Position numbers and translations under genes: made by a program. Positions 13,787-31,590 of a stretch of DNA of 39,942 nucleotides are shown in pieces. Source of the stretch: Candidatus Thorarchaeota archaeon (GTDB taxonomy: Archaea; Asgardarchaeota; Thorarchaeia; Thorarchaeales; Thorarchaeaceae); assembly GCA_029855935.1 (NCBI GenBank), contig JAGSHN010000006.1, positions 1 to 39,942 on the forward strand. Direction: 5' to 3'. The notes beneath the pieces were generated by a model. That model was not told where the DNA came from. It ran no database searches and saw only the letters and a list, made by a program, of their open reading frames with translations. The first letter of the stretch is position 1. Each line of letters begins with the position of its first letter.

Positions 13787-14809
13787 TCAGAGCACGTAGT
13801 CGAGCAGGGTCTCGACGTCCTCCGTCCGTTGCCGCGAGTACTCTACATACGTGGGATTGATGTCAATGCCGATGTAGTGCCGGCCCAGCTTCCTGGCTAC
13901 CGCAGTTGTGGTCCCGCTCCCAACGAAGGGATCGAGCACCACTCCGTCCGGGGGCGACAGCAACAGAATCAGCTGCGCGACGACAAACTCAGGAAATATC
14001 GCGGGATGACCCACGCCCTTGATCGTCTCAACGGGGCATTCGATGACATCCCTCTTGATGTGCTCCCCGCGGATACGGATGATGGTGAAGCCCTTTCGCT
14101 CCATCTGTATTGCTCTGCCCCCGCTCTGACCGCCAAAGGCCGGCGCGTGAATGCCACGTATCTTCATCCTGAACCCTGCTATCTCTCCCCGCCGCACCTC
14201 ATCAATGACCTGCTCCAACTCCCTTCGCGCCTGCGCCTTCTGCTCCTCGGACAGGTCGCTCCGCTCGATCAGTGACAAGTAGCGTGTGCCGAGCCGCCCG
14301 CCGTTCTTTGCCCGCTTTCGCAGCAAGCCGTGAAGAGCCATATACGCATCAAGGTTGTAGTAGTACTCATCCGATTTGACAAAGTCAAAGAATGGCTCGG
14401 TCGCGCTGACAAGGCGACGCCTGAACTGGCGGGGTGTCGGGTTCATCTTCACCCACGTTATCGTATTGATTAGCCTGACGGGCTGGGACTTGAGAACGGC
14501 CGTGGCGAATCGCCACGGGACCAGCAGGAGTGAGCCGTCCATGTATTTGTCGCCAAGGTTGAAGACTATGTGACCATCCTCCGTGAGGATTCGTACGCAC
14601 TCTGCGAAGACTGAGAGGAGCCGCTCGACATACTCGTCAAGAGAGTCCTCATTGCCAATCGCACCATCGACCCCATAGTCGCGTTGCTGATAGTACGGAG
14701 GTGATGTCAGAACAAGATTGACGCTGCGGTCTGGAATTCTCTGCAGCACAGTCAGACTATCACCGACCACGATACTATCCACAGGAAGGTCTTCAGAGTG
14801 GTTCACCAC
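13787..14809 (-). CDS. Beta-class DNA methyltransferase (likely N4-cytosine)
   Basis: SAM-dependent DNA amino-methyltransferase, 340 aa. Catalytic motif IV is TSPPYYQQRDYG (residues 35-46) near the N-terminus and the SAM-binding motif I is DPFVGSGTTTAVARKLGR (293-310) near the C-terminus, which is the beta order (IV before I). The SPPY form is typical of m4C enzymes, though some m6A enzymes carry it. GHPAIFPEFV just before motif I is also characteristic. The middle (about 125-260) is the likely target-recognition region. The start is a GTG at 14809 followed by another GTG. No nuclease is adjacent; the divergent neighbour is an ATPase with a nuclease-like tail. Confidence 0.85.
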   Translation of the reverse strand: MVNHSEDLPVDSIVVGDSLTVLQRIPDRSVNLVLTSPPYYQQRDYGVDGAIGNEDSLDEYVERLLSVFAECVRILTEDGHIVFNLGDKYMDGSLLLVPWRFATAVLKSQPVRLINTITWVKMNPTPRQFRRRLVSATEPFFDFVKSDEYYYNLDAYMALHGLLRKRAKNGGRLGTRYLSLIERSDLSEEQKAQARRELEQVIDEVRRGEIAGFRMKIRGIHAPAFGGQSGGRAIQMERKGFTIIRIRGEHIKRDVIECPVETIKGVGHPAIFPEFVVAQLILLLSPPDGVVLDPFVGSGTTTAVARKLGRHYIGIDINPTYVEYSRQRTEDVETLLDYVL

Positions 14810-20807: not shown

Positions 20808-23036
20808 ATGGCCGAGCGTGTTCCTGAGATTGCCTTGCGGATCGTGACGGGGCTACACGCTGCGCGGCCCGGGCCTGCTGATGAAGACAGGCAAGAGATG
20901 TACACTGCAATGGAGGCAGTACGCATTGCGGCTCTGACCGGTGCCATGAGACAACGGGAGGAGAGGCCGTGTGACAGGCCGCCTCGGGAGTTTGTCCGGT
21001 TGTCCCGTATGGCGCAGATGGCCGGAGTGAGAAGTCAGGCCGTCCTCAGTCTTGCGGCACAACTGCTTGGTTCAGTCCCGTTCGCCAAGATTGCAGAGAG
21101 AGTGCGGAAACTGTCTCCACGGGAGTTCACCTACCTGCTCGGTACTCTCCATTACTACGGTACGCACATACTGCCACATGGTGATGCGCGTCCCCAGACG
21201 CTGAAGGGTCTCGGGTCGTTCTACACGCCTCCGCACGTCGCTGACTTCATTGTGCAGCTCACAATCGCTCCATTGTGGTCACGCCAGGCACCACAGATCA
21301 TCACGGGTGACCAGGAGGCGCTCCAGCATATTCTCAGCCTGAGAGTGCTGGACCCGGCGTGCGGCCCAGGCGCGTTTCTCGTCTCTGTGCTGGAACAGTT
21401 CATCGACTGGCTCAAGTCCCTCTGTGACGAGCCCACCGTTCGAACCCTGGTCGATGAGATGGGCGGAGTCTCTGTCGTCGCAGGCAGGCTTGCGCGCAGG
21501 CTATACGGTGTGGACCTTGACTTGGGCGCCCTCGAGGTGGCTGCACAGAGCCTCTCCATTCTGACGAGCCGCAGCGTGACCGCAGACGAGATACTGACCA
21601 GGACACTGAGACAGGGTGATGCACTCATCTCAAGGCACGGTCTTGACGGGGAGAGGGACTACAGTCACCTTCTGAGTGATGACGACGACTGGGTTCCCTT
21701 TGAATGGCGGGAGGAGTTTCCCGATGTCCTCCGAGATGGCGATGGCTTCGACGTGATCGTGATGAACCCGCCCTACGAGCGTCTGAGGCCGAATGTGGCC
21801 GAATTCCTCAGGGAACGCCTGGCCCTACGGCGGGCGACCAGGGGCGGGCCGGAGTTTCGGGAACACCGAGAGAGGCTGTTCAGGCTCGTCCGGTACTTCA
21901 GACGGTCGGGCGACTACAGGTTCACAAACAGATACACCATCGACACACACAGGCTGTTCATCGAGCGATCCCTTCGACTACTTAGAAACGGTGGTAGACT
22001 GGGCGTTGTCGTGCCGACAAGCATCCTCGGCGACCTCTCGGCCAGGCCGCTCAGGGAGCATCTCCTGCTTGAGAACCGGGTGGAGACCATCATCGAGTTC
22101 CCAGAGCGCGCCAGGTTGTTTCCTGATGTCACGCAGGGCGTGACGGTACTCGTGGTGGAGAAGGGAAACACAACAGAGACTCTTGAGGTGTACTGCGGCC
22201 TTGAGAACACTAGACAGCACAATGAGGTCCGTCCGCTGCGGCTCTCAGTTGAAGACATATTCAGAGTGACGGGGAAGTCTCTCAAGGTCCCCTGCGTGGC
22301 ACCGAACTCCTGGGCCACTGTACTGACGATTCACAGACAGCCCCCAATGCGTTCCCTTCACGGCCTGCGAGTCCTGCGTGGCGAGCTCGATCTGACCCTC
22401 GATCGCGAGTTCATTACGCGGACGCCCACGGGAACGCCTCTTGTGCGTGGTTCGGCCATCGAAAGGTTCGTACTCCGACCGCCAGACGACGACAAGTCGG
22501 AGTGGGTCTTGCTTCAAGACTTCGTCGCCTCGCGCAGCGCCTCGTCTAGGACTAGCGACATCTCCCGCGTTCGAATTGCCTGTCAGCAGGTCTCGAACCG
22601 CTCTCAACGCTGGAGGCTCAAGTTCGCTCTCGTTCCGACAGGCTGCGTGCTCGCGAACAGTGTCAACTATGTCACTGTCAGCAACGACAACGAGGCCACG
22701 TTGCTCTATCTTCTCGGCGTGCTCAACTCCACTCTCCTGAACTGGAGATTCAAGATGACAAGTACGAACAACCACGTCTCGATTGCTGAGCTTCAAGATC
22801 TCCCCCTTGTTCCCCTGGACGGCGGCAAGGACAGAACGAGGGAGCTGGCGCAGAGACTCATTGCCGAGGTGAGGACGCTTCTCTCCGCCCCCGGTAGACC
22901 CATCCATACTCTCGATGCCGTTGTGTTTGCACTATACGGCCTGGATGACAGACAAGCGAGGGATGTGCTCGAGTGCGAGGGAGCGACCGAGGAAGAGACA
23001 GAAGCGGTGATGAACGAACTGCGCGGCCTCGTCTGA
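20808..23036 (+). CDS. N6-adenine DNA methyltransferase of the Eco57I/Alw26I-like type
   Basis: Gamma-class DNA methyltransferase, 742 aa. After a helical N-terminal ~130 residues come GSFYTPPHVADFIV (motif X), DPACGPGAFLVSVL (motif I, 182-195), LYGVDLDLGALEVA (motif II) and the catalytic VIVMNPPYERL (NPPY, 320-323). RLGVVVPTSILGD is motif VI. The last ~250 residues hold a TaqI-type target-recognition domain (LLYLLGVLNSTLLNWRF, TSTNNHVSIAELQDLPLVPL). The layout resembles modification subunits of the Alw26I/Eco31I/Esp3I family, which pair an m6A and an m5C enzyme. No PD-(D/E)XK or other nuclease motif was seen in it. It is followed by the C5-cytosine enzyme after 71 bp, so the two are probably co-transcribed. 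Confidence 0.85.
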   Translation: MAERVPEIALRIVTGLHAARPGPADEDRQEMYTAMEAVRIAALTGAMRQREERPCDRPPREFVRLSRMAQMAGVRSQAVLSLAAQLLGSVPFAKIAERVRKLSPREFTYLLGTLHYYGTHILPHGDARPQTLKGLGSFYTPPHVADFIVQLTIAPLWSRQAPQIITGDQEALQHILSLRVLDPACGPGAFLVSVLEQFIDWLKSLCDEPTVRTLVDEMGGVSVVAGRLARRLYGVDLDLGALEVAAQSLSILTSRSVTADEILTRTLRQGDALISRHGLDGERDYSHLLSDDDDWVPFEWREEFPDVLRDGDGFDVIVMNPPYERLRPNVAEFLRERLALRRATRGGPEFREHRERLFRLVRYFRRSGDYRFTNRYTIDTHRLFIERSLRLLRNGGRLGVVVPTSILGDLSARPLREHLLLENRVETIIEFPERARLFPDVTQGVTVLVVEKGNTTETLEVYCGLENTRQHNEVRPLRLSVEDIFRVTGKSLKVPCVAPNSWATVLTIHRQPPMRSLHGLRVLRGELDLTLDREFITRTPTGTPLVRGSAIERFVLRPPDDDKSEWVLLQDFVASRSASSRTSDISRVRIACQQVSNRSQRWRLKFALVPTGCVLANSVNYVTVSNDNEATLLYLLGVLNSTLLNWRFKMTSTNNHVSIAELQDLPLVPLDGGKDRTRELAQRLIAEVRTLLSAPGRPIHTLDAVVFALYGLDDRQARDVLECEGATEEETEAVMNELRGLV

Positions 23037-23107
23037 GGCACGGCGTATTGCGCTCGCAATGCAAGGGATGAAAGCCGTCTGCCCTGTGGCCAAGACGGGC
23101 CCGTACC

Positions 23108-24349
23108 ATGTACGAGATCAGTCGACAGGCGGCTTACGAGGGAATCCCCCTAAGGAACGAGCGCAGCGACCTGTTGTTCAACCACGTCGCCCCCTCACTC
23201 AGCGTTCTCGACCTTGAGATGGTGCGATCAATACCGCCTGGCGGTAACTGGAAAGACATCCCACTCGGCGTGGCAAGACGCTCAGCCCGCGTGATGAGAA
23301 TCCGTCAACGCGGAGGACGCACCACCTACTATGGGCGTCTACGGCCGGACATGCCGGCGTACACGATAAACACGTACTTCCACAGGCCGGGAAATGGAAC
23401 GTTCATACACTATGCTCAGGATCGTACGATCTCGTATCGCGAGGCGGCTAGACTTCAGTCATTTCCTGACGACTACGTCTTCGTCGGTCCTCGGAACTCT
23501 CTCACCCGGCAGATAGGCAATGCTGTACCGCCGCTGATGGCCTATGCAGTGGGACGCCAGCTTCAAAGGGGTCGGACTGTGGACCTATTCGCGGGAGCAG
23601 GCGGTCTGTCGGAGGGGCTCTCGTACGCGGGACACAGCGTGATTGCCGCGTTCGACCACGTCCCAGCAATGTGCACAACCTACGCGTTGAATCATCCGGA
23701 CACCCAGGTACGCTGCGTCGACCTCGCGACTGAAACGGACTACAGAGGTGTGCTGGAGGCGGTGAACGAGGCGCTGCGTGGTCGCACACTGACGCTGCTC
23801 GCGGGCGGTCCACCCTGCCAAGGATTCTCCACTGCGGGCCTATGGGACTCTCGGGACCCGCGAAATCGGCTCATCCGTGTGATGCTACAGGCTGCACAGG
23901 ATCTGAGTCCGCTGCAGGTCGTCATCGAGAATGTGACTGGTCTGAAGTGGATGCTCGGAGGACAGATACTTGGGATGATCATTGAACGCCTCACCCAGCT
24001 CGGCTACCACGTGACATGCGAAACGCTTCGGGCGGAGGAGTACGGTGTTCCTCAACGTCGAAGACGAGTGTTCATAGTGGCCACCGAGTCTCCCGACGGA
24101 TGGTCAAGGCCAGAGCCGTGCTTTGCGGCGGTCCCGCGCGGAGCCACCTCGGTTCACCACCTCGGCGACGGACACCTCGAACCTCCTGTCACGGTCGAAG
24201 AGGCGATTAGTGATCTGCCGGGCCTCGTTGCTGGGGGCGGTGCAGACATAGTAGAGTACAACCGTTCTGCCACGTGGTCAGCGTACCAATGCTACTCGCG
24301 TGGCAGCCTCAGCCCCGAACGCTTTCTCAGAATTCGCGGGGGCCTGTGA
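23108..24349 (+). CDS. Circularly permuted C5-cytosine DNA methyltransferase
   Basis: m5C methyltransferase, 413 aa, with every conserved motif present but in rotated order. Motif IX (ISYREAARLQSFPDDYVF, ~108-125) and X (QIGNAVPP, 135-142) come first. Then motif I (DLFAGAGGLSEG, 159-170), IV (GGPPCQGFS, catalytic Cys237), VI (VIENV, Glu274) and VIII (PQRRRR, 315-320) follow. The normal order is I-IV-VI-VIII-recognition region-IX-X. The cut falls inside the recognition region: the C-terminus ends SAYQCYSRGSLSPERFLRIR and the N-terminus resumes with LLFNHVAPSLS...PPGGNWKDIP, which normally follows it. All catalytic residues are kept, so it is probably active. Partner of the upstream m6A enzyme. 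Confidence 0.88.
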   Translation: MYEISRQAAYEGIPLRNERSDLLFNHVAPSLSVLDLEMVRSIPPGGNWKDIPLGVARRSARVMRIRQRGGRTTYYGRLRPDMPAYTINTYFHRPGNGTFIHYAQDRTISYREAARLQSFPDDYVFVGPRNSLTRQIGNAVPPLMAYAVGRQLQRGRTVDLFAGAGGLSEGLSYAGHSVIAAFDHVPAMCTTYALNHPDTQVRCVDLATETDYRGVLEAVNEALRGRTLTLLAGGPPCQGFSTAGLWDSRDPRNRLIRVMLQAAQDLSPLQVVIENVTGLKWMLGGQILGMIIERLTQLGYHVTCETLRAEEYGVPQRRRRVFIVATESPDGWSRPEPCFAAVPRGATSVHHLGDGHLEPPVTVEEAISDLPGLVAGGGADIVEYNRSATWSAYQCYSRGSLSPERFLRIRGGL

Positions 24350-24571: not shown

Positions 24572-26269
24572 TTGATATCGTATGCAGCCCTCATGGACCT
24601 CCAAGGTCCGAAGACACTGGCGGAGCACTCGTTCGTCAAGAGACCTCCCGACCAGTCGTGGATAGACACAACGCTCGAACGCTTCTATGATAGGGTGGCC
24701 TCCGATGAGAGGGCGGACTTTGTTGAGGTCGGCGAAGAGCCACCGGAGGCCTGTGTGGCACGGGTAGATAGAACGTCGGTGGTTGTCGTCCTTGGCGATC
24801 AGTCAGGACTTGATGAGCACGATCTGCAGGGTGCCAAGGCCCTGCAGAAGGCTGTGAGCTGGCTCGCCGGCGATGGTTCAGTGCGTGCTGTCAGAGACGA
24901 CTTCAGCACTCTCGTCCGCAGGCACCTTGCACGTCCTGTGACATTCCTCGTCGTGACCCCTGACACGGTGGCAGGAGACAACCTCCCTGCGCGGGCGGTG
25001 TTGAATCTTGTCGGCGGGATTGGTCGTCAGACGGAGGAGCCCTTCGACGTTGGGCCCTACAGGGTCACCGTGATCCACAGGACATATGGGAATCTTGGCG
25101 TGTTCGTCGGCATTGAGAATCTCACAGGCTGTGCATTCGTGTCGAGCCCAGAGGTCGAGTTCTCGGAATACGATGCTGTCGTGGTCAACGCACGACGGAT
25201 GGGTCGTGTAGCGACAATGGTCATCCCCTGTTCTGACGACCAGCTGGAGAGAGCGCGCGAGCTTGAGGATCTGCTGGGAGTAGAGCTATGCGACTCAGTA
25301 TCAGAGAGTCCCACCGAGCTGGTACTGTCGATGATGAGCACAGCAATGCTCACGGACATGCATCCTGACCTGGCAAGAAGGAACTGGGTCATCGATGAGC
25401 GTCTCAAGGCCCTGGATGAAGCAGCAGAGGGTGCGCCGCGCGGGGGGCATCAGGCCTTCTTTGTCATCGACAGACTCACCGGCAAGCCCGTCTTCGCGTA
25501 CTACTATGAGGAACGCCAGAGCCTGATAGAACGGGTGCCGAACATCGTTGCTGCCGTCGCTTCCTTTGCCATGGGGGACCGGTCAGCTGAGAAGACATCT
25601 GTAGTCAGGACAGGGCAGTTCAACTACGTGACAATCGAGCATGGTAATCTTGTCTTCACTCTCGTGACGGCACACAGGACGGGGCTAGAAGAACTTCGCG
25701 AACGGTTCTCCACCCTCCCAGGTCTGTGGGACGAGGAGGGCCTAGATATCGATAATCCAGTCGCTCCAGACCCCTACGACTCGATTCCATTCACCCTCAA
25801 GCTGCTATCTCTGTTGCCGCCAAGGGACCTTCTCCCACGCACAGTCCCCGTCAGGGCCAGAGAACCAGCCTGGGAACGATTTAGAAACGAGCTCGTACGT
25901 GAGTTCCTAAAGACACTGTGGGCCAGTATCGACGGGGAGATTGATATCGGCCGGCTCACACAGGCCGCGGGCCTGCAGCTGGCTCTTGGTGGAATACATC
26001 TGCTCCACCGGCTGGGCGCTGTGAAACTGAGACTACGACTACGACCCGAGGATGTGCCCATCCTCTCAGGAGCGGTCCCACCGGACGTGCAGGCCGCGTA
26101 CTCGGAGCTGGACGATATCCTGAGGGAAATGAACGGTACACGGACGCTTGCGCAGATTGCAGAGAGCGTCAACATCGGAATCGATGTGCTCAACACGCTC
26201 GTCGTGCAACTCTATGAGCGCGGAGTCATCAGAATCAGGTTCGGTGATTCAGCCCAAAAAGCTTCATAG
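24572..26269 (+). CDS. Longin/roadblock-like protein with tandem C-terminal winged-helix-like repeats
   Basis: 565 aa, soluble. Residues ~60-240 form an unrecognised alpha/beta region (RTSVVVVLGDQSG, PVTFLVVTPDTV, GNLGVFVGIENLTG). Residues ~292-385 read as a longin/roadblock fold: HQAFFVIDRLTGKPVFAYYY, a long helix (IERVPNIVAAVASFA), then NYVTIEHGNLVFTLVT and a last helix. The C-terminus has two similar helical units, DGEIDIGRLTQAAGLQLALG...LGAVKLRL (~454-488) and NGTRTLAQIAESVNIGIDVL...RGVIRIRF (~521-557). The same pair of units ends the neighbouring GTPase, which strongly suggests a shared pathway. The start is TTG 24572 or ATG 24593. A regulator or effector of the GTPase is the best guess. 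Confidence 0.7.
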   Translation: MISYAALMDLQGPKTLAEHSFVKRPPDQSWIDTTLERFYDRVASDERADFVEVGEEPPEACVARVDRTSVVVVLGDQSGLDEHDLQGAKALQKAVSWLAGDGSVRAVRDDFSTLVRRHLARPVTFLVVTPDTVAGDNLPARAVLNLVGGIGRQTEEPFDVGPYRVTVIHRTYGNLGVFVGIENLTGCAFVSSPEVEFSEYDAVVVNARRMGRVATMVIPCSDDQLERARELEDLLGVELCDSVSESPTELVLSMMSTAMLTDMHPDLARRNWVIDERLKALDEAAEGAPRGGHQAFFVIDRLTGKPVFAYYYEERQSLIERVPNIVAAVASFAMGDRSAEKTSVVRTGQFNYVTIEHGNLVFTLVTAHRTGLEELRERFSTLPGLWDEEGLDIDNPVAPDPYDSIPFTLKLLSLLPPRDLLPRTVPVRAREPAWERFRNELVREFLKTLWASIDGEIDIGRLTQAAGLQLALGGIHLLHRLGAVKLRLRLRPEDVPILSGAVPPDVQAAYSELDDILREMNGTRTLAQIAESVNIGIDVLNTLVVQLYERGVIRIRFGDSAQKAS

Positions 26270-26349: not shown

Positions 26350-28299
26350 ATGATACACAACGTGTTGCTCATCGACAGGAACACTGGAGAGATACTGGCC
26401 CGAGTCCGCTTCTGGAAGATCCCGTTCGACGAACATCACGTCAAGGAGTTCCTCATCGGATATGAGGACCTGCTCAATACAGAGGGTCTCGCCAAAGATA
26501 CCCCAATCTATGTCGGCGAGCACAAGGTGTTCCATCACACTGTCGGCGAGAACATGATACTGATCTTTGCGACTGACGGTCGTGACGAGGACCGCACGAT
26601 ACAGTACAAGGTCCGCGAGAGCGCTGCGCGAATCGAGACCGCACTGCGCGGTAACACAATGAGCTACATACGTGACAATCTCGATGACATCCTTGGCGAC
26701 CTCGTCTTCACGCACTTCAAGGTGTCCTTCGTGGGCCTTGGTGGCGTAGGCAAGAGCACGCTCCTCAGGCTGCTGTTCGGGAAGGAACCAGCACCCGGTG
26801 GCTACGTGCCGACGATAAATGTCGCCGTGGACTCCTCGGAGACAATTCAGTTCGGCACGTTCCTCGTCACCATATGGGACTTCGCCGGACAGGCCGTCTT
26901 CCACGACCTCTGGGGATTCTATTTCCAGGGCACCGATGTCATCTTCCTCGTCACAGACAGCAGCTTCAGAAATGTGATGCAGACCAAGACGCTGATGCGG
27001 AACATCCGCAAGGAGGCCCCTGCAGTCCCACTGTTCATAATTGCAAACAAGCAGGACCTGCCCGAGTCAATGCGCGCGGACAAGATACAGAGACTCCTCG
27101 GTGCGCCCACATTCCCGATGGTGGCCACCGACAAGTCTCGACGGGAGGAGTTCATCAGGTTCATGCTTGAGGTGGCAGCAAAGACCGTTGGAGTTGAGCT
27201 GCCAGACCGACCGCTCAGCGAGATGGTGACAGTACGCCGCAGGACAGAGGATGTCTTTCCAGATCAGGCTGCCCCACGACCCCCACAGCAGCGGGGCTTT
27301 GAGACCGTGCCCTACGAGGAGCCCTCACCGTCGGCCGGAGTGACACCGGCACAGAAACAACCCGCACAGGGAGAGGAGGCCGGGGTACAGGTAGCCAGTG
27401 AGGGTGAGGCTGGTGCTCAGGCCAGACCAACGCCCGTTGGCCCAACAGAGAGGGCGAAACTGCTACATCTCATACTGCTGGTACCACAGCACGGCATACC
27501 TCACATCGCGCTTGACCTCAACTACAGTGACGAGCAACCTGTCGAGGGTAACACGGTGGCGTCGCTGATCTCAGCACTTGACTCATTCTCGGGCATCGAT
27601 GCGGCTGCTGATGGGAGTGGCGCCAAGACCGACGCCCTTGAGACCATCCAGCACGAGGGCAACCTGATAATGGTGGAGAAGTCCCGACACTTCATCCTCG
27701 GGCTGACTGTAACCAACAATTCCGAGGAGGAGGAACAGCGGAAAATAATGGCAAGCATTCTAGTGGACCTTGAACAGAAGTATGCCGATGTCTGGGACAG
27801 CTGGGATGGGGATGCGTCTGTCTTCGAGCCCGCAGTATTTCAAATCCTGTCGCACTTCCCGCTGTGTGAGGTGGGCTTTGACTACCTCGTGAGGCCTCGT
27901 GAGGCCGGAAAGCCGTTGCCCTTCAAGAACCGCGAGGTGGGACGCGCACTGGTCACCGTCCAGAGCGCAGTCGACGGCTCGACGACTGTGGGTGGTCTTG
28001 TGCGTTCGATAGATCTCCCGCGCGAGGTCGTCATAGGTAGCCTTCAGATACTTGTCAAGTTCGACTGGATTGACTTTCAAGTGGAGATAGGTCCCAAGAC
28101 CATTCTGCGCAAGAAGCGTGACGTGGACTCTGAGTTGAGAAAGATCTACGGTGATGCCGTGGTCAAGTTCGTGGACCTGTGCGATGGTACACTCTCGCTT
28201 GAGGACGTTGTGCGCAAGATTCCCAATGTGAGTCTGTCGCCAATGAGATTCGTGGCCACGAAGCTGGTACTTGGCGGAATTCTTGAGATTGTCGCCTGA
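26350..28299 (+). CDS. Longin - Arf/Rag-like GTPase - longin - winged-helix fusion protein
   Basis: 649 aa. Residues 1-115 are a longin-like domain (MIHNVLLIDRNTGEILARVR...ENMILIFATDG). Residues ~120-285 are a small GTPase: P-loop GLGGVGKST (129-137), switch Thr155 (PTINV), G3 WDFAGQ (176-181, the Arf/Rag form), G4 NKQD (233-236) and a G5-like VATDK (258-262). A Pro/Glu-rich linker spans ~300-365. A second longin-like domain follows (LLHLILLVPQHGIPHIALDL...HFILGLTV, ~370-485). Two winged-helix-like units close the protein (DGSTTVGGLVRSIDLPREVV, ~542; DGTLSLEDVVRKIPN, ~612). In the switch II Gln position Gln181 is kept, so GTP hydrolysis is plausible. Fusion of small GTPases to longin/roadblock domains is a hallmark of Asgard eukaryotic-signature proteins. 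Confidence 0.85.
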   Translation: MIHNVLLIDRNTGEILARVRFWKIPFDEHHVKEFLIGYEDLLNTEGLAKDTPIYVGEHKVFHHTVGENMILIFATDGRDEDRTIQYKVRESAARIETALRGNTMSYIRDNLDDILGDLVFTHFKVSFVGLGGVGKSTLLRLLFGKEPAPGGYVPTINVAVDSSETIQFGTFLVTIWDFAGQAVFHDLWGFYFQGTDVIFLVTDSSFRNVMQTKTLMRNIRKEAPAVPLFIIANKQDLPESMRADKIQRLLGAPTFPMVATDKSRREEFIRFMLEVAAKTVGVELPDRPLSEMVTVRRRTEDVFPDQAAPRPPQQRGFETVPYEEPSPSAGVTPAQKQPAQGEEAGVQVASEGEAGAQARPTPVGPTERAKLLHLILLVPQHGIPHIALDLNYSDEQPVEGNTVASLISALDSFSGIDAAADGSGAKTDALETIQHEGNLIMVEKSRHFILGLTVTNNSEEEEQRKIMASILVDLEQKYADVWDSWDGDASVFEPAVFQILSHFPLCEVGFDYLVRPREAGKPLPFKNREVGRALVTVQSAVDGSTTVGGLVRSIDLPREVVIGSLQILVKFDWIDFQVEIGPKTILRKKRDVDSELRKIYGDAVVKFVDLCDGTLSLEDVVRKIPNVSLSPMRFVATKLVLGGILEIVA

Positions 28300-28315: not shown

Positions 28316-30478
28316 CTACAGGTCAAACACAAGCCTCTGGGAAGGCGCAGGGATCAACACGCCATCCGGAGCCCCTTGAGCCGGCGTGTGCACCATTATC
28401 TTCTTTGCCGTACAGGAGCGGATGAACTCTCCCAATCTTGATGAGGAGGAGTGGGCGCTGAGTCGGGCGTACTCGACGCGACAGAGATGTGGCTCAAAGC
28501 CATATAGCAGGTTCCAGCCTGGCGTACGCGGAGCAAGGTACCCGCACAGGATGACAGCCGCCTCGGGATTCTCGCGATGCTCCTCGAAATGCTGTTTTGC
28601 TGGTCCCCCGTTGAGCATCCCCCCGCCAGAGACAAGTATGTCCTCCCTCTCCAGCACAACCTTGTTCTTCTTTATCCCCTCCCAGGCGCCACTGAAGCCA
28701 GTCATCTTCGTGACCTTCTCCGCAAGGCCTGCGACGATTATGTTCCTCTCGGAAGAGGCACCAATCTGGTCCAGGATGGTCAGCATCTCCTGCGAGCGCC
28801 CGACAGCGAATGCTGGGATTATGATCGGACCGTAGTTATTGACTATGTCAGTGACCTGTCCGTAGACACGGACCCTGTCGAAGTCCTCGCGTCCCCAGTA
28901 CGTTCCGTCAAAGATGATGACATCAGTGTCTGTCGGCAGTGCCGCCCCAGGGAGGATTGCCGACGGATCGAGATTGAAGTCGCCAGTATACAGGATCCTG
29001 AAGCCCTCGACGTCTATGACGTACGCCACCGAGCCGGGCACGTGGCTGGCATCTATCGGTGTGACGACAATGCCTCCTCCCACCTCACTGCTCTTGCCGA
29101 CCTCAAGCTTCACGTGGTTCTTGATGACAGTGTCGATGTTCTTCTTCGTAAAGCGGGATATCAGGTCTCTCCTGTCGGATCTGCGCGGCGGACTGGGTGT
29201 GCCGACCGCGAGGGCATCCTCCAGCAGCATCTTCGTTATGGCCGCTGTCAGGCCGGTCGAGCACCATCTGCCATCATACTTGTCGTATAAGATGGGAAGC
29301 CCACCGACGTGGTCAAGATGAGCGTGCGAGATGAGGACAGAGTCGACCATGTCGACCTCGGGCTCCCAGCTGGGAATCTGCTGGTTCGCCACAGACAGCC
29401 CGAAGTCCAGAAGCACGCCCCCACAATCGGTCTTGATGATAATGCCGCTGTGACCAATCCTGGGCCCTCCAATGAAGAGTATCTCCACCCTCTTGGGTGC
29501 AGTGGAGTAGACAATGGCGGGCATCAGCTGCACGCGCATCTTGTCTGGTATCATCTCGAAGACGACGGGGTCAATCGCCTCCGGTGCTGGTGGCTGAGGA
29601 AGGTCCTGCAGTCTCACCGGGAGCACGTGACCGTCGTGTGACTTGAAGTCCTCACGGTCGTAGAGATCTCTGACCGCGTCAACCGCCGCCTCGATCGTCA
29701 TACCGGGAGACAGGACATCCTGCGCCTGCTGGGCCATCTGCTCTCTGAATATCCCGAGTATCTCTCTTGAGATCGCGTCCGGAAGCCACTCTCGCGTCAG
29801 GCTGCGGACCTGCTGGTAGGTGCGCCCCTGGAGCGCTTCCTCCAGATATGCTGTGTGTCTCTTCAGCACTGCCACGAACCGCAGGTCCTCATCAGCGAGA
29901 CAGGAGCTGATGTCAACCCCCATCTCCTCGCAGGGCTCCGCAAGATCCTCCGGCGACCACAGCGGAGCGCCAAGGAATTCAATCCATTCTCTCACGCGAG
30001 AGAGCAGCGCACGGCCAGTCAGACCGTCGGCGACTCCAAGCAGGATGACGGCGCGCCTGAGCCAGGTGTCCACGGCAGCACGCGGTAATGACGAATTCAG
30101 GGTGAGCCTGTAGGCGTGGCGCATCTCCTCGTCGGTGAACTCGCCCAGCAGAAAGCCGTAGACGATTAGCGAGGCGCCATCGATGTACGTCTTCGTTGTT
30201 AGCCCGGACAGAATACCACGGAGTAGACGGACATGCGCATCCTCGGCAACGACCTCCTCGGCGCCCTCAGGCATCTCGCCGTGCTGAGCGAACTTCAGAA
30301 TGGCGTAGGGCAGTACCACTCCAGACTCGCCCAGCAGACCAGTCTCCCCCTCGACAGCCTTGCCAGCTGACAGCCGCTCGGCGTCGGCAACAGCCTGTCG
30401 GAAGCGTTCTGCAACCAGTTCCGAGGAAATTCTGTCCGCAAAGACCATCGTGTCGACAGTCACGGAGTCGTCCGTCAT
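28316..30478 (-). CDS. Metallo-beta-lactamase/beta-CASP nuclease-like protein with large N-terminal domain
   Basis: 720 aa. The second half is an MBL/beta-CASP hydrolase (RNase J/CPSF73 superfamily): metal motif SHAHLDHVGG (His385, His387, Asp389, His390), ASHVPGS (His479) and LYTGDFN (Asp500). The beta-CASP motifs are FDGTYWGRED (A), ARLSAHSSS (His676, B) and IMVHTPAQG (His697, C). All metal ligands are present, so an active RNA- or DNA-processing enzyme is likely. Residues 1-~310 are helical, without recognised motifs, and replace the KH domains of archaeal CPSF homologues. Its ATG overlaps the stop of the NAD-kinase-like gene by 4 nt (ATGA), so translation of the two is coupled. Confidence 0.83.
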   Translation of the reverse strand: MTDDSVTVDTMVFADRISSELVAERFRQAVADAERLSAGKAVEGETGLLGESGVVLPYAILKFAQHGEMPEGAEEVVAEDAHVRLLRGILSGLTTKTYIDGASLIVYGFLLGEFTDEEMRHAYRLTLNSSLPRAAVDTWLRRAVILLGVADGLTGRALLSRVREWIEFLGAPLWSPEDLAEPCEEMGVDISSCLADEDLRFVAVLKRHTAYLEEALQGRTYQQVRSLTREWLPDAISREILGIFREQMAQQAQDVLSPGMTIEAAVDAVRDLYDREDFKSHDGHVLPVRLQDLPQPPAPEAIDPVVFEMIPDKMRVQLMPAIVYSTAPKRVEILFIGGPRIGHSGIIIKTDCGGVLLDFGLSVANQQIPSWEPEVDMVDSVLISHAHLDHVGGLPILYDKYDGRWCSTGLTAAITKMLLEDALAVGTPSPPRRSDRRDLISRFTKKNIDTVIKNHVKLEVGKSSEVGGGIVVTPIDASHVPGSVAYVIDVEGFRILYTGDFNLDPSAILPGAALPTDTDVIIFDGTYWGREDFDRVRVYGQVTDIVNNYGPIIIPAFAVGRSQEMLTILDQIGASSERNIIVAGLAEKVTKMTGFSGAWEGIKKNKVVLEREDILVSGGGMLNGGPAKQHFEEHRENPEAAVILCGYLAPRTPGWNLLYGFEPHLCRVEYARLSAHSSSSRLGEFIRSCTAKKIMVHTPAQGAPDGVLIPAPSQRLVFDL

Positions 30479-31590
30479 CGCCTCCTCACCTCTCTGCTCT
30501 TCTCTACGTTCGCCTTGCCTCCACCGCGTCTGTCGCGGTCGGTGACAATTCTGAATAGTCCCTGCCTACTATCGCGAAGCGACACGTGCCTCGTGACCAA
30601 GCCCTCAGAGATGAGCTTTGACAGTGCGTGCCGCACAGTGCGAGCAGGGAGCTTTGTCTCATTGACAATCTCCCTCTGTGTCATCACATCGTGATACTCC
30701 AGCACCTTGAGAACCAGTTTCGCACTCGGCGGGAGCGCACGTGCAGCTCCCGAATGCGCACGGACCTTTCTCTGCAGTCGTCCTCTGAGAGCAGCCACGC
30801 GTTCCTCCGCAAACTTCACAAAGACAGCATCGTGAGGGGAGCGCCTGACGATGATGGGGCCGCCGTCAGCCCCTACCCGTCGTTGACCGTCGAGCACTAT
30901 GTCTATGCCGACGGAGCTGCTCAGTTCGCGCAGCTCTACTGTCATGTCATCAGGCAACACAAGGGGTCTGCGCGCAGGGTTGGTGCTGTTGACAGGGATG
31001 ACAGTCAGGGCGTGAGTGGAGCCTAGGAGAACAGGGCCACCGACGCTCATCGAGTAGGCAGTACTACCGGTAGGCGTTGAGACTATCACGCCGTCGCTAC
31101 TGTCCCGCCAGAACTCCTCACCGTCAATGACGAGTGTGTAGTGCATTAGTGTTGCACTGCGTCGAGGAAAGATTGCGGCCTCGTTGAGGAGCGGAGGTGT
31201 CGTCCGCCGTGTCCCCACTCTGACGACTATCCTTGTGTGCCGCTCCTCGGTCCAGTCGTGATTCAACAGATCCGAGACTACCAGGTCGAAGTTGCGGACA
31301 TGGACATCGAAGAGGTATCCCTCCTGATCGACAGACGCCACTGGCAGCACTGCGACCTCTCTGCTGCCAAGGTCGAGAAGCGTGCGTAACAGTGTCCTGT
31401 CAGAACCAACAATTATGATGACATCGATATTCGCCTTCCGAAGACTGGATCCCTCTTCCTCACGACCGAGCAGTCGCGCCACGGCAGTATCGAGAACGAC
31501 CTCTGCATTCGCCTCCTCAAGGGCGCCTATGACCTCGAGTAGGTCACTGGTGGCGTTCTCGGTCGTGTCAGCAGTGATGCCCAGTCTCAT
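30475..31590 (-). CDS. NAD kinase-like protein fused to a C-terminal winged helix
   Basis: 371 aa. Residues 1-~275 match the NAD kinase (PpnK) fold: IIIVGSDRTLLRTLL at 58-72 stands where GGDGTLLR is expected, PLLNEAAIFPR holds the NE motif (Asn136-Glu137), and SSDGVIVSTPTGSTAYSMSVGGPVL (164-188) is the conserved NAD-binding segment. IDIVLDGQRRV is the C-terminal strand pair. The general-base Asp64 is kept, but both flanking glycines differ (Ser63, Arg65). Residues ~290-350 are a winged helix (PPSAKLVLKVLEYHDVMTQR...LPARTVRHALSKLISEGLVT). That makes it either an NADP-making enzyme with DNA-binding tail or a nucleotide-sensing regulator. It is divergent from nadA. Confidence 0.8.
   Translation of the reverse strand: MRLGITADTTENATSDLLEVIGALEEANAEVVLDTAVARLLGREEEGSSLRKANIDVIIIVGSDRTLLRTLLDLGSREVAVLPVASVDQEGYLFDVHVRNFDLVVSDLLNHDWTEERHTRIVVRVGTRRTTPPLLNEAAIFPRRSATLMHYTLVIDGEEFWRDSSDGVIVSTPTGSTAYSMSVGGPVLLGSTHALTVIPVNSTNPARRPLVLPDDMTVELRELSSSVGIDIVLDGQRRVGADGGPIIVRRSPHDAVFVKFAEERVAALRGRLQRKVRAHSGAARALPPSAKLVLKVLEYHDVMTQREIVNETKLPARTVRHALSKLISEGLVTRHVSLRDSRQGLFRIVTDRDRRGGGKANVEKSREVRRR

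Follow-up and report, generated by a model that had tools for sequence, protein, structure and literature searches.

Eukaryotic small GTPases are controlled by platforms built from longin and roadblock domains, and the Asgard archaea are the group nearest to the eukaryotes. The question raised by the present locus is whether an Asgard gene that appears to place a GTPase between two such domains encodes a genuine chain, to which GTPases its product belongs, and whether that product works alone or with a second protein. The DNA analysed, referred to here as the window, is one entire contig of 39,942 nucleotides from an Asgard archaeon (G000:C25). A first-pass annotation, made by reading the raw sequence, had divided the product of one open reading frame into a longin, an Arf/Rag-like GTPase, a second longin and tandem winged helices, and had regarded it as a self-contained unit. 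AlphaFold2 modelling, Pfam searches, broad family profiles and ortholog conservation established that the four-domain reading was right for every part, and the following features were assigned to the gene:

26350..28299, + strand: the whole four-part protein, an open reading frame with full-length orthologs throughout Thorarchaeia
26350..26706, + strand: N-terminal longin, residues 1-119
26707..27219, + strand: Arf-like GTPase domain, residues 120-290
26734..26757, + strand: P-loop GLGGVGKS, residues 129-136
26875..26892, + strand: switch II motif WDFAGQ, residues 176-181, with Gln at the catalytic position
27046..27057, + strand: guanine-specificity motif NKQD, residues 233-236
27220..27447, + strand: disordered linker, residues 291-366 (pLDDT <50)
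27448..27789, + strand: second longin, residues 367-480
27790..27921, + strand: connector, residues 481-524, from the AlphaFold2 model
27922..28119, + strand: winged helix 1, residues 525-590, with predicted helices at 528-540, 547-553 and 558-570 and a wing
28120..28296, + strand: winged helix 2, residues 591-649, from the AlphaFold2 model and profile comparison with the partner protein described below

The open reading frame begins with ATG and encodes 649 amino acids, in which the N-terminal longin is followed by an intact Arf-like GTPase, the disordered linker, the second longin and the two winged helices. This chain represents neither a frameshift nor a chance join, because full-length orthologs with 58-80% identity and a common start, (M/L)IHN, span Thorarchaeia. 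The full-length protein was present in 20 or more Thorarchaeia genomes and all full-length copies in our genome collection fell within the family of the window's genome, no intact four-part fusion being found in the other Asgard families of that collection. A search with the full alignment recovered relatives in 36 public loci, nearly all from records titled Candidatus Thorarchaeota, with two titled Lokiarchaeota and two titled 'archaeon'; no relative was recognised in viral contigs by peptide patterns. The GTPase is the most and the linker the least conserved part of the sequence. Promoter and terminator scans returned nothing above chance. A paralog on contig G000:C21 (L002, 1501-3321) shares the longin-GTPase front, with 41% identity over residues 1-308, and an acidic low-complexity tail of roughly 300 residues replaces the second longin and the winged helices in that protein.

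The domains that flank the GTPase were assigned by structure prediction and by profile comparison. An AlphaFold2 model computed from 21 orthologs (pTM 0.41), in which pLDDT was mostly 75-90 in both flanks and low in the GTPase switches and the linker, shows the order strand-strand-helix-strand-strand-strand-helix-helix at residues 1-118, the same order at residues 371-477, and two helical units with wings at approximately 525-649. In both flanks this predicted order of elements is that of a longin and not that of a roadblock, which begins with a helix. The window sequence of residues 1-119 alone gave no longin match, nor did a narrow profile of N-longin orthologs (A5) in Pfam or the PDB, this profile being too shallow, and an equally narrow profile of the C-terminal half (A3), also too shallow, produced one stray match. 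The N-longin family was widened by 17 diverse Asgard longin-GTPases to give a profile (A6) which, when compared with the PDB, retrieved AP-2 sigma first (E 0.002), AP-3 and AP-4 sigma, then VAMP7 (0.025), with MglB lower down. Single relatives of this family matched Pfam Fuz_longin_1 (6e-7) and Longin (4e-5), and the second longins of the GTPase protein and of its partner were in turn matched by the N-longin family profile (E 3e-4 and 3e-5, respectively). The winged helices matched HTH_47 weakly on their own sequence (0.004) and at 1.4e-8 within the wider family. The flanks, initially described as longin/roadblock-like, are therefore both longin-like, and the two winged-helix-like units proposed for the C-terminus were recovered.

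The core of the protein had been described as an intact GTPase of Arf/Rag type. All three motifs, GLGGVGKST, WDFAGQ and NKQD, occur in the protein, and all 21 full-length orthologs retain them, the P-loop as G....GK[ST] and the other two without variation, NKQD forming part of an invariant NKQDLPES. Pfam Arf matched residues 121-252 (4.4e-19) with 69 bits as compared to a curated cut-off of 22.3, while Roc, Ras and Gtr1_RagA scored 59.7, 48.1 and 21.8 bits, respectively. The last of these is borderline, with a cut-off of 22 for the whole protein and a score of 24 bits in the genome scan, and lies far below Arf, so that, of the two labels, Arf-like fits the core better. The domain is an Arf-like core and not an Arf, because the N-terminal amphipathic helix with myristoylation site typical of Arf is absent and, in the AlphaFold2 model, is replaced by the longin. 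In a tree of 43 GTPase domains the four-part proteins nest within a clade of Asgard longin-GTPases, with a support of 99/97 for their grouping with the nearest Thorarchaeia longin-GTPases, and Arf1 is the sister of that clade (92/82) on a long branch which renders its placement provisional. Separate groups are formed by the genome's own GTPases of MglA type (100/100) and Rab type (99/98), so labelled from their motifs. The core has many Asgard relatives and lies outside the MglA-type GTPases of its own genome, and MglA identity was rejected on that basis. The ancestor of the core was accordingly an Asgard longin-GTPase, to which a longin-winged-helix module was added at the C-terminus. This addition apparently took place in Thorarchaeia, since searches of other Asgard families did not yield the complete fusion, although the module is present there as a stand-alone protein or in other proteins.

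The suggestion that the protein is self-contained was not supported, as a collinear paralog whose GTPase domain has decayed normally lies immediately upstream of the gene. In the window this paralog, the partner, has the following features:

24572..26269, + strand: 565-residue partner, a collinear paralog with a degenerate GTPase domain
24572..24907, + strand: N-terminal longin of the partner, residues 1-112
24908..25432, + strand: probable pseudoGTPase region of the partner, residues 113-287
25436..25741, + strand: second longin of the partner, residues 289-390, from the AlphaFold2 model, with a weak Pfam Fuz_longin_1 match
25877..26245, + strand: tandem winged helices of the partner, residues 436-558, from the AlphaFold2 model, with an NPRL2 winged-helix profile match (E 0.02)

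The partner gene ends 80 bp ahead of the GTPase gene. The two proteins align end to end in hhalign (98.6%, E 1e-15), as compared to 0.15 for a full-length reversed control. When the parts were compared separately, the N-longins matched at 2e-6 (partner against residues 1-119 of the GTPase protein) and the winged helices at 1e-12, with E 1.3e-12 for the partner's pair against winged helix 1 of the GTPase protein; the middle regions (0.0085) and the C-longins (0.027) matched more weakly, yet better than reversed or shuffled controls (0.1-0.7, and 0.17-0.27 for the middle region). Independent evidence came from searching genomes with the partner profile, which in several of them matched the GTPase protein in its C-terminal half (~1e-13). 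In all 24 partner orthologs the middle region lacks a P-loop and DxxGQ and has no NKxD at the aligned site, and, as read from its sequence, the partner is probably a pseudoGTPase twin. Its collinearity with the GTPase protein suggests that the middle domain keeps the Ras fold; it could instead be another alpha/beta fold, because the region matches only weakly when taken alone and one stray match is a designed Rossmann protein.

The association of the two genes was determined in a survey of 36 loci, six of which start with the GTPase gene or shortly ahead of it, leaving 30 that could be assessed. The partner lies directly upstream of the GTPase gene, on the same strand and with a gap of about 80-175 bp, in 28 of these 30. 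Upstream sequence is present without a partner gene in L072 and L073, where the pair may not be obligate or the assemblies may have been rearranged. As a collinear, decayed paralog normally precedes the GTPase gene, the working unit is more likely to be a heterodimer. On contig G000:C11 (L003, 2-2064), a 294-residue longin-GTPase gene overlaps the end of an upstream 393-residue gene whose start reads as longin-like, a second instance in which a GTPase and a longin-like gene ahead of it are coupled.

The C-terminal halves of both proteins resemble NPRL2 and NPRL3. The longin-winged-helix half of the partner was modelled by AlphaFold2 (pLDDT 82, pTM 0.78) and compared by Foldseek with 350,542 PDB chains; ranks 1-8 were chains of GATOR1, KICSTOR-GATOR1 and SEA-complex entries (E 1e-6 to 1e-4, with low TM-scores of ~0.3), and these chains, unnamed in the table, we take to be NPRL2/NPRL3 (Npr2/Npr3) from the entry and the chain length. 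Below rank 8 followed the longins of AP sigma, Sec22b, VAMP7, LAMTOR and MON1-CCZ1. The full-length GTPase protein gave Rag complexes, together with chains from the GATOR1 entries named above, as its leading matches. When 17 diverse longin-winged-helix module sequences were combined into a profile (A7) and searched against 177,635 PDB sequences, NPRL2 came first (E 7e-4), over the connector and winged helix 1, and MON1A second (E 0.004), over the longin, and Pfam searches among members of the module family returned NPR2 (6e-4) and HTH_NPRL3 (8e-4), the NPRL matches by profile being modest. Across 119 Asgard genomes Pfam NPR2 gave sub-threshold matches only, with none in the window's own genome; the best of them is a 430-residue Thorarchaeia longin-winged-helix protein (L113, 892-2184).

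Like NPRL2/NPRL3 of GATOR1/SEACIT, which are its top profile and fold matches, the module comprises a longin followed by tandem winged helices and is present in two paralogous chains, the NPRL2 and NPRL3 chains likewise forming a pair, whereas here it is fused behind a longin-GTPase or a pseudoGTPase. Npr2 and Npr3 consist of a longin and a triad of winged helices (PMC3521125), and they pair through their longins (PMC8534245). As opposed to that triad, just two winged helices are present in the AlphaFold2 models of the Thorarchaeia proteins. No conserved arginine finger was found: a candidate position for the catalytic Arg, near the end of strand 3 of the partner's C-longin, is Arg in 19 of 24 orthologs, Gln in 4 and Lys in 1. 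Owing to the two winged helices, the lack of a strictly conserved arginine at the site checked and scores below the Pfam cut-offs, the module was not filed as NPRL2/3, although it looks like these proteins and may work like them. Tandem stand-alone longin-winged-helix proteins of 287 and 285 residues, encoded at L005 1339-3162 (G000:C15) and paired in many Thorarchaeia genomes, look like a free pair of NPRL2/NPRL3 type; no GTPase gene was recognised near this pair in the two genomes considered.

Upstream of the partner gene, the window contains two further conserved neighbours:

20808..23036, + strand: N6-adenine DNA methyltransferase gene (Pfam Eco57I, 4e-20)
23108..24349, + strand: C5-cytosine DNA methyltransferase gene (Pfam DNA_methylase, 2e-54)

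Both genes precede the partner, on the same strand and in conserved order, wherever the partner and enough sequence are present, with the C5 gene undetected in L083, and given enough upstream sequence the N6 gene keeps its place and strand except in L072 and L073. No endonuclease or restriction enzyme was identified beside the two methyltransferases, and class-wide conservation of such a pair (20808-24349, + strand) is unusual for a restriction system. A third DNA methyltransferase is encoded at 13787-14809 on the - strand (N6_N4_Mtase, 2.8e-44). Downstream of the GTPase gene and convergent with it lies another conserved neighbour, a metallo-beta-lactamase/beta-CASP gene (28316-30478, - strand), whose product has a 330-residue N-terminal part without a family match and scores about 1e-42 against the aCPSF1 model and 1e-40 against the Cas14 model, far below both cut-offs. 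An NAD kinase fused to a C-terminal winged helix is encoded at 30475-31590 (- strand) and recurs at about this position in many Thorarchaeia loci.

We consider it on balance probable that the gene product is the GTP-binding member of a switch made of two proteins, namely an active/pseudo GTPase heterodimer which carries its own longin regulators. The pairing of the GTPase protein with its partner is suggested by analogy and by gene linkage. In such a complex the longins would pair N-terminal with N-terminal and C-terminal with C-terminal, as in NPRL2/NPRL3 and MON1/CCZ1, and the winged-helix tails would contribute further contacts between the two chains. The sole nucleotide cycle would sit on the GTPase protein, with its rate of exchange or hydrolysis being set by the longin platform and the pseudoGTPase subunit, while the GTP state would alter the recruitment of effectors by the winged-helix end. 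Functionally, two chains would then do the work of Rag together with the NPRL2/NPRL3 core of GATOR1, and the linked DNA methyltransferases offer a lead to the signal or effector.

The conserved order of four genes on one strand across Thorarchaeia, methyltransferase-methyltransferase-partner-GTPase, is also what might be expected of a GTP-controlled regulator bound to DNA, in which the winged helices bind DNA, the longin-GTPase acts as a gate and the N6 and C5 methyltransferases belong to the same pathway, for example in marking or reading chromosome sites. The tails indeed give many weak matches to DNA-binding winged-helix families (TrmB, MarR and IclR); however, winged helices also act as protein-protein modules, as in NPRL2/3 and ESCRT-II, the module is closest in structure and sequence to NPRL2/3 and not to transcription factors, and in the window a gap of 222 bp separates the methyltransferases from the GTPase/partner pair. 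The sequence is acidic (pI 4.6-4.8) around the first winged helix of the GTPase protein and around the second of the partner, which argues against DNA binding, whereas it is mildly basic around the remaining two units, and for this reason charge, as calculated from the sequences, neither supports nor excludes DNA binding by the tails. We regard this explanation, the chief rival, as rather unlikely.

A homodimer, in which the protein's own two longins serve as built-in scaffold and regulator and the upstream gene is functionally unrelated, would account for the presence of every part within one chain and for the two loci, L072 and L073, that keep the GTPase gene without a linked partner, and homodimers have been modelled for Rag-like fusions of Asgard archaea (Tran et al., PMC10933270). 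The collinear paralogy of the upstream gene and its linkage across the group speak against such an arrangement, to which we assign a low probability. Lower still is the likelihood of a true Rag-type GTPase, that is a GTPase with a C-terminal roadblock, furnished with extra domains. In the whole-chain Foldseek search the first match was indeed a GATOR1-RAG chain with the length of RagA, and Rag complexes ranked high, but the domain behind the GTPase follows the longin and not the roadblock order in the AlphaFold2 model, and in the tree the core stands apart from those GTPases of its own genome that score best with Gtr1_RagA. Together with a borderline Gtr1_RagA score, just under its cut-off for the whole protein, as compared to the clear Arf match, this led us to reject Rag identity.

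The heterodimer that we favour shares elements with several known systems. Like the Rag GTPases (RagA-RagC, Gtr1-Gtr2), it would combine a GTPase with a C-terminal scaffold domain in a heterodimer of paralogs, but both Rags bind nucleotide and carry a roadblock, as opposed to the longin and Arf-like core found here. The longin GEFs MON1-CCZ1 and Fuzzy, in which longin pairs act as GTPase platforms and of which MON1A provided the second-best profile match, have several longins, no GTPase in the chain and no tandem winged helices. Bacterial MglA-MglB also couples a small GTPase to a regulator of the roadblock/longin class, although the core described here is outside the MglA-type group of its own genome. 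That GTPase and longin/roadblock parts are separate proteins, as had been pointed out in the first-pass annotation, holds for eukaryotes, but their fusion is not new to Asgard archaea, as longin-GTPase, GTPase-roadblock and longin-GTPase-roadblock fusions have been described from the MK-D1 genome (Tran et al. 2024, PMC10933270). The present protein resembles these in having an Arf/Rag-like GTPase directly behind a longin and, as in some of them, a second scaffold domain after the GTPase; it differs in that this second domain is a longin and not a roadblock and is followed by two winged helices, and in that the gene has a linked paralog with a dead GTPase. In MK-D1, GTPase genes are generally located outside operons with longin genes (PMC10933270), and an 'NPRL2-like longin domain' class has been listed for Asgard genomes (PMC9834061). 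Within the open-access literature we found no earlier description of a chain with this longin-GTPase-longin-winged-helix layout, nor of the linked pseudoGTPase twin, nor of the methyltransferase linkage. The relevance to trafficking control that had been proposed for the gene is one of analogy only, and a more specific pointer, to the NPRL2/NPRL3 part of GATOR1, comes from the winged-helix half.

The locus brings together a switch, its platforms and an NPRL2/3-like module in two adjacent genes that are conserved across one Asgard class, and as a two-protein system it would be far easier to express and solve than GATOR1-Rag-Ragulator. It makes testable the questions of whether longin-winged-helix regulators and GTPases began as one polypeptide, and whether one subunit was turned into a regulator by the loss of its nucleotide site. 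Tentatively, the pair may be an archaeal relative of the Rag-GATOR1 core, consisting of two Arf-like GTPases, one active and the other dead, that each carry an NPRL2/3-type module of their own. If so, and considered with the stand-alone pair in the same genomes, longin-winged-helix GTPase regulators would have arisen in Asgard archaea before TOR control, and would here be tied to a DNA-methylation gene cluster.
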